Shown here piece by piece: positions 33,867 to 34,106 of a stretch of 64,000 nt of DNA. Under the pieces are notes generated by a model. It was given only the letters and a program-made list of their open reading frames with translations, was not told where the DNA came from and did no database searches. A program made the position numbers and the translations under genes. Every line of letters begins with the position of its first letter. Position 1 is the stretch's first letter. The DNA comes from Methylomonas albis (lineage in GTDB: Bacteria; Pseudomonadota; Gammaproteobacteria; Methylococcales; Methylomonadaceae): assembly GCF_014850955.1 (NCBI RefSeq), contig NZ_JACXSS010000001.1:5084001-5148000 (forward strand). The letters are read 5' to 3'.

Positions 33867-34106
33867 ATGAGAAAACAAAACCCCAGCAAGGACTTGCAAG
33901 ACAAGCCCAGCAAAAACCCGGTGGCGAAATTCGCCCATCGATTCAACAAAGCACAAGTCTACGCCGACAAAACCCAATATCGCCGTAAAGCCAAACATCA
34001 AGGCCAGGAGCCTTTCTCAATCGTTTCGGAACAAGCGATTGAGAAAGGCTCCTGGCAATTCGCCATTGCTTCTGCAGCGCTGCAGTCGCCGGCAATAGCC
34101 GCTTAA
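33867..34106 (+). CDS. Probable alternative ribosome-rescue factor (ArfA-like)
   Basis: 79 residues, very basic, with a GGAG ribosome site before the ATG. The core NPVAKFAHRFNKAQVYADKT followed by QYRRKAKHQG resembles the ArfA pattern of a short helix, then a basic (G/D)K-x-x-Y-x-RK-x-KH tail that enters the empty mRNA channel of stalled ribosomes. The coding region contains a perfect 21-bp hairpin at codons 46-63. In E. coli such a hairpin in arfA causes RNase III cleavage or termination, giving a non-stop mRNA, so full-length ArfA accumulates only when tmRNA fails. A truncated product here would be about 52-57 residues, like active E. coli ArfA. Family call inferred from pattern and hairpin. 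Confidence 0.6.
   Translation: MRKQNPSKDLQDKPSKNPVAKFAHRFNKAQVYADKTQYRRKAKHQGQEPFSIVSEQAIEKGSWQFAIASAALQSPAIAA
34003..34056 (+). promoter_or_regulatory. Perfect 21-bp hairpin inside the ArfA-like gene
   Basis: Arms 34003-34023 and 34036-34056 are exact reverse complements (core AGGAGCCTTTCTCAATCG) around a 12-base loop. It lies wholly inside the coding sequence and constrains the encoded residues. It is not followed by a T run, so RNase III-type cleavage is more likely than simple termination. Confidence 0.9.

Follow-up and report, generated by a model that had tools for sequence, protein, structure and literature searches.

A conserved hairpin inside a DUF7230 gene of Methylomonas albis points to an ArfA-type ribosome-rescue factor probably made from a non-stop mRNA

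In Escherichia coli the arfA mRNA is cut by RNase III at a stem in its coding region, or the message ends there, and only a failed or overwhelmed trans-translation system lets the truncated ArfA escape (PMC3989581 and PMC8012679, in the portions available). Part of the structural work on ArfA reports a state in which its N-terminus is disordered although the protein is on the ribosome, and lists V198, F217 and W319 of RF2 among the ArfA contacts (PMC5378476). A survey covering over 15,000 genomes, in the part available, reports ArfA from Gammaproteobacteria, some Betaproteobacteria and ten species of the B. subtilis group, and from no other bacteria (PMC11633108). BrfA of Bacillus subtilis is likewise a short rescue factor translated from a programmed non-stop mRNA, which in this case is due to an intrinsic terminator inside the ORF (PMC6881298, available in part). 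ArfT of Francisella has 40 aa and a basic tail (KKGGSTNKK). It is found where ArfA and ArfB are absent and, in the accessible part of its description, is apparently not ArfA-like in regulation (PMC6299226).

Here we describe a gene from a window of 64 kb (the whole stretch of Methylomonas albis DNA that was analysed). Its anatomy is that of E. coli arfA in the respects that can be tested by sequence. Like ArfA (PF03889), it encodes a short basic protein with the tail Y-x-R-K-x-K-H, has a coding-region stem past the core and fits the same logic of a tmRNA backup. Compared by description, it shares with BrfA the small size and, as proposed here, the programmed non-stop message, and differs in having a long stem with no called terminator; with ArfT it shares a short protein and a basic tail. 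We consider it very probable that the gene product is an alternative ribosome-rescue factor of the ArfA type, which would be translated from a non-stop mRNA and so be under the control of trans-translation. The features of the locus are as follows.

31944..33818, minus strand: mnmG, the divergent upstream neighbour (TIGR00136; synteny)
33855..33859, plus strand: putative Shine-Dalgarno-like GGAGA, with the ATG 7 nt further on (sequence inspection)
33867..34106, plus strand: full ORF of the DUF7230 gene, 79 codons, proposed alternative ribosome-rescue factor (Pfam PF23876 match)
33915..33998, plus strand: conserved core NPVAKFAHRFNKAQVYADKTQYRRKAKH, residues 17-44 (55-homologue alignment)
34003..34026, plus strand: 5' arm of the stem (fold), about codons 46-55, presumed place of RNase III cleavage and predicted end of mRNA and protein
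34027..34032, plus strand: loop, 6 nt (fold)
34033..34056, plus strand: 3' arm of the stem (fold; covariation)
34057..34106, plus strand: C-terminal extension, SPAIAA and stop, unconserved, predicted to be translated rarely (55-homologue alignment)
34134..34742, plus strand: ribA (GTP cyclohydrolase II), 27 nt downstream (TIGR00505)

The hairpin is the strongest inverted repeat found across the window. Positions 34003-34023 and 34036-34056 are exact complements of 21 nt with 12 nt between them, and the arms can be extended to 34003-34026 and 34033-34056 (24 nt, 96% complementary). The predicted fold has 24 pairs and a 6-nt loop and starts in codon 46. The exact arms and 12-base loop given for this 79-codon ORF in a preliminary description of the DNA are thus real and not a product of chance; the same description had placed the stem at codons 46-63, which is right for its start, whereas the 3' arm reaches into codon 64. 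No other perfect hairpin with arms of at least 16 nt (loop 3-30) occurs in the window, and in ten order-1 Markov sequences of 64 kb each the longest perfect arms were 11 nt. When the 72-nt segment was recoded synonymously 1000 times, no recoding was as stable as the natural sequence (-45.2 vs a mean of -19.3, sd 5.1). For the 311 nt around the gene the fold z-score was -4.7, and none of 100 shuffles reached the same stability.

The 79-aa product matches DUF7230 (PF23876) in Pfam with 70.1 bits (E 1.7e-19), the curated cut-off being 27 bits. DUF7230 is the only family above its cut-off in this protein, and an RF-1 domain (GGQ), our criterion for ArfB, is missing. Profile search for PF03889 gave no match in the protein or in the rest of the genome, which has a single DUF7230 match, and the NCBIfam models did not match the protein either. 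A PDB search gave zero matches and an Rfam search four (E 0.046-3.9), each far below the gathering score. The closest named relatives are Methylomonas strains. Counting the own genome, DUF7230 is found in 54 of the 61 genomes of the family sample (missing from 7), in 13 of 369 genomes of the class sample, 11 of them exceeding the cut-off, and in 3 of 398 genomes of the phylum sample. In the alignment of 55 homologues protein conservation runs to a glutamate a few residues past KH, early in the stem, and then collapses. The full-length ORF ends in SPAIAA; AA is also the end of several ArfA ORFs, and the tmRNA tag of this genome ends in ALAA. Judged from sequence, the terminal AA may possibly be a built-in degradation signal on a read-through product. 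We found no paper on DUF7230 or its core motifs, and among the matches listed for rescue factors no title concerns this gene. What is known is the kind of system; the family, its phage branch and the proof of the stem by covariation appear to be new within the literature searched.

The stem is kept throughout the chromosomal relatives. Among 56 DUF7230 matches of the family set, 55 were used. The excluded one (L068) is a second copy with an ordinary stop; together with L013 it forms a shorter subfamily, KPKTHxDKTxY, which ends in an ordinary stop, has no comparable stem and resembles the protein of phage CBB (genome G427 carries the second copy). A stem of 18-30 pairs lies directly after the core in 54 of the 55 homologues, the median over all 55 loci being 25 pairs; the exception, L062, is a large-loop variant that the pair measure overlooks. 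The apex of the stem is 36-44 residues past the N of NPVAK (median 37.7). The stop codon follows the stem at 45 loci and falls in the 3' arm at 7 and in the loop at 3, and at none of the 55 does it come before or in the 5' arm. A set of named genomes, which shares genomes with the family set and is not independent of it, behaves in the same way: 104 relatives were found and 80 kept, of which 79 could be measured (L143 runs off its contig), and at least 18 pairs are present in 78 of the 79, L155 having 14. Here the stop codon lies after the stem in 72, in the 3' arm in 5 and in the loop in 2; no stop comes earlier. Outside the family the element is often lacking. Of 11 such members in the class sample, 7 show nothing comparable ahead of the stop. 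Long stems are present in L004 and L005, where the stop falls in the 3' half, and L009 and L010 carry hairpins within the ORF that are shorter and shaped like terminators.

Synonymous recoding was applied at all 55 loci, with 100 recodings per locus and 1000 for the window gene. At 40 loci no recoding was as stable as the natural sequence, and at 15 at least one of 100 was; the median z was -4.1 (range -8.0 to +1.8). Covariation was assessed in a sequence-based alignment of 54 distinct rows covering 24 pairs. In this alignment 89.5% of the cells are paired, vs 68.0% after shuffling and 44-53% when the arms are slid, and 265 cells have two-sided changes vs 73.4 in the shuffled control. Two-sided change occurs in 22 of the 24 pairs, vs 17.8 after shuffling, a value reached by 1 of 500 shuffles. 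The covariation score is 0.630 as compared to 0.234 for shuffled and 0.11-0.15 for slid alignments, so that covariation of the stem in related methanotrophs, proposed earlier as a check, is indeed found. The stem sequences diverge widely across species and pairing is kept by compensation. Compensatory pairing, the early fade of protein conservation and the recoding test together indicate that selection maintains the RNA structure, and we read the tail encoded by the stem as a likely by-product of this selection. The earlier suggestion of a coding-region hairpin that would lead to a non-stop mRNA is strongly supported at the sequence level, given a stem at 54 of 55 loci and an early stop at none.

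The relationship to ArfA is less direct. A direct assignment of the protein to ArfA was rejected, as neither PF03889 nor any NCBIfam model matches. It had been described at first as a divergent ArfA, an identity to be given up if a profile search showed no similarity and the stem proved unconserved in orthologues. There is no direct ArfA profile match, yet the stem is conserved; profile search gives DUF7230 and the KGKGS motif is absent, and a possible link to ArfA is given by four intermediate sequences. Where ArfA has KGKGSY, DUF7230 has DK(T/S)xY (DKTQY in the window protein, DKxxY in the 55-homologue alignment), and the distance from N to KH, measured by eye, is 28 residues in DUF7230 vs 32 in E. 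coli ArfA. For the comparison of stems, 29 ArfA loci were fetched and 26 were caught by the motif; at least 18 pairs within 90 nt past the motif were found in 18 of the 26. The stop lies in the 5' arm at 3 of the 26 ArfA loci as compared to none of the 55 DUF7230 loci. DUF7230, in contrast to ArfA, is common in phages and has no PF03889 match. Two ArfA loci, L180 and L185, continue past KH with RGKEPYSKAA or VRRESYL, which can be compared with QGQEPFS in the window protein; this likeness means that the sequence at the start of the stem may be shared too.

The ArfA alignment used for profile comparison had 26 sequences, namely 25 of the 26 motif loci (L080 dropped, L082 trimmed) and the E. coli stretch, and each E-value given here refers to a single pairwise comparison. 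Compared directly, DUF7230 and ArfA gave a weak match of 44.6% over 13 columns of the Y-x-R-K-x-K-H tail, with a score of 22.0 vs 19.4 for the best of 150 column shuffles and 17.2 for the reversed DUF7230 profile. Adding five further DUF7230 members lowered the match to 37.7%. Four intermediates (L012, L014, L165 and L166) were picked by eye for their likeness to ArfA; L012 and L014 are slightly below the DUF7230 cut-off, and L166, from another class, has a terminator-shaped hairpin before its stop. These hand-picked sequences match DUF7230 with 92% (E 6.8e-7) and ArfA with 88.8% (E 2.5e-6), the latter over 27 columns in the RF2-touching part of ArfA and with a score of 29.6 vs 15.1 for the best of 150 column shuffles. 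Merging them into the DUF7230 alignment gave an ArfA match of 20.1%. In each of these comparisons with ArfA, all 150 shuffles scored lower than the real profiles. Phage members taken alone match DUF7230 with 99.3%, the intermediates with 85.7% and ArfA with 0.35%. Kinship of DUF7230 and ArfA is possible; what speaks for it are the four chosen intermediates and the shared logic.

Genome context and the set of other rescue factors bear on the role of the gene. In 70 of the 80 named relatives mnmG is the upstream neighbour, in the opposite orientation, and in 18 of the 80 ribA lies downstream. The genome carries tmRNA, with the tag ANDENYSVALAA. It has two RF-1-domain frames, 361 and 367 aa long, which is the size of RF1 and RF2, and no ArfB-sized frame was found in it. 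Its RF2 can be aligned gap-free to an RF2 of known structure (1gqe), and V198, F217 and W319 are present. Across the 61 family genomes ArfA (PF03889) was found in none; 10 have ArfB-sized frames (140-173 aa), and one more, G388, has a match that looks broken. The 7 genomes lacking DUF7230 include G388 as well as G421, where an ArfB-sized frame is present. In the class sample DUF7230 (13 genomes) and ArfA (6) co-occur in none of 369; as about 0.2 shared genomes would be expected, this non-overlap is not evidence.

Another feature of the window is a cluster of inverted and direct repeats (AATTATGAGAT/ATCTCATAATT) at 51841-51968, with arms at 51841-51864/51873-51896 and 51930-51943/51955-51968. 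It lies in the gap between two minus-strand ORFs, 49409-51544, which from its appearance we take to be restriction-type helicase-like, and 52264-53484, presumably Fic-like by its sequence. The cluster is possibly an operator or control region.

DUF7230 has a large phage branch. Scanning IMG/VR gave 46 loci with DUF7230-like proteins (L190-L235), 24 of them distinct from the NPVAK motif onward. Close relatives of the protein of Pseudomonas phage ITTPL (Pakpunavirus) occur in 124 records of Pseudomonas phages, the protein of PA5oct has relatives in 11 records at at least 95% identity, and Pectobacterium phage CBB has one DUF7230 protein; their matches to DUF7230 have E-values of 8e-18, 3e-16 and 4.7e-17, respectively. 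The annotations under the DUF7230 match in phiMK include a tRNA-Gly, and plasmid records gave no DUF7230 match. The window protein also matches phrog_6310 and phrog_1359, which, like Pfam DUF7230, have no function assigned. Further phage DUF7230 loci were placed as follows.

2492-2620 of L236: phage DUF7230 locus
2501-2653 of L237: phage DUF7230 locus
2471-2641 of L238: phage DUF7230 locus

The phage genes differ from the chromosomal ones in their RNA. The best local fold past the core has a median of -14.0 kcal/mol at the 46 viral loci vs -35.1 at the 55 chromosomal loci. Two viral loci, L198 and L209, reach -25 kcal/mol or lower, with the fold following the stop codon, and L198, L200-L202 and L223-L224 have 21-29 pairs but 11-22 unpaired bases (about -14 to -21 kcal/mol). 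In none of the phage genes examined, Pfam and phrog members included, was a stem of comparable stability found before the stop. In 26 representatives chosen from the 46 viral loci the ordinary stop comes at a median of 38 residues past the N, 24 of them at 33-46 and the others at 54 and 85; the proteins of the three named phages stop at 38, 41 and 43. The chromosomal 5' arm spans medians of 28.7 to 37.7 residues past the N. Since most phage stops come at roughly the point where the chromosomal mRNA would be cut, the protein seems to end at much the same position by two routes, and since the phage genes have no comparable stem, phages may carry rescue factors that are free of tmRNA control. We see about an even chance that DUF7230 is a rescue family moving between phages and bacteria, whose phage copies are constitutive while the copy in Methylomonas and its relatives is locked by a non-stop mRNA. 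Constitutive versions would be carried by a Pakpunavirus and its many relatives among Pseudomonas phages, by jumbo phages similar to PA5oct and by numerous uncultivated phages, and stalled ribosomes may be freed by these versions without tmRNA tagging during infection.

Other explanations of the hairpin have to be considered. The perfect arms are all that would speak for a chance palindrome or an inserted repeat element; shuffles, recodings and Markov sequences make chance unlikely, and the stem sequences differ widely between species with pairing kept, which leaves this explanation exceedingly improbable. It is also quite unlikely, in our opinion, that the stem is a transcription terminator or a stabiliser of the mRNA end and that the function of the protein is a different one. 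In 24 of 55 members, vs 15.4 expected, at least 6 of 8 nt close to the 3' end of the stem are T, and termination may contribute in some relatives; moreover, L009, L010 and L166 have their shorter terminator-shaped hairpins within the ORF, though the scan called L010 only. The scan made no call at the window gene, which makes RNase III the likelier agent there. Stems of 18-30 pairs exceed what an intrinsic terminator usually needs, and at 45 of 55 loci the ORF encloses the whole stem and stops only beyond it. A terminator would in any case also yield a non-stop mRNA, as in BrfA (PMC6881298, available in part), so the regulatory reading would hold.

The phage branch raises a further explanation, namely that DUF7230 is a phage-derived basic protein with an unrelated role, such as binding of nucleic acid or ribosomes in infection, and that the chromosomal hairpin limits its level for some other reason. 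Many phage homologues have unknown functions, a CxxC zinc-ribbon-like N-terminal part is observed in the phage forms L190-L193, and the phage members alone lack the ArfA profile match. Against this stands the core motif DKxxYxRKxKH, which resembles the ArfA tail, with the intermediates joining the families. That 54 of 61 family genomes retain the gene, and that mnmG lies upstream of it in 70 of 80 named relatives, fits a housekeeping function, and programmed non-stop control is documented for the rescue factors ArfA and BrfA in the available parts of PMC8012679 and PMC6881298. We regard an unrelated phage role as unlikely.

We therefore retain an ArfA-type rescue factor under trans-translation control as the preferred reading and propose how it would work. 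The short basic protein would act like ArfA and rescue ribosomes stalled at the 3' ends of stop-less mRNAs. The mRNA of the gene itself is predicted to form the 24-pair stem just past the codons of the functional core, and RNase III probably cuts this stem so that the message ends ahead of the stop codon. When trans-translation is working, tmRNA would take the ribosomes off the truncated message and the product would be tagged and destroyed. When it is missing or overloaded, an untagged protein of about 46-55 residues would be released, which probably acts with RF2. What we infer for Methylomonas is that RNase III cleaves the message, that the product is tagged, and that the protein has rescue activity and depends on RF2.

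If the proposal is true, a role could be assigned to DUF7230, until now a Pfam family of unknown function, and to several protein families of phages, and the missing backup of trans-translation in methane-oxidising bacteria would be supplied. It would also mean that programmed self-truncation of a message is a solution that recurs. The phage branch poses a testable question, namely whether phages bring their own ribosome rescue.
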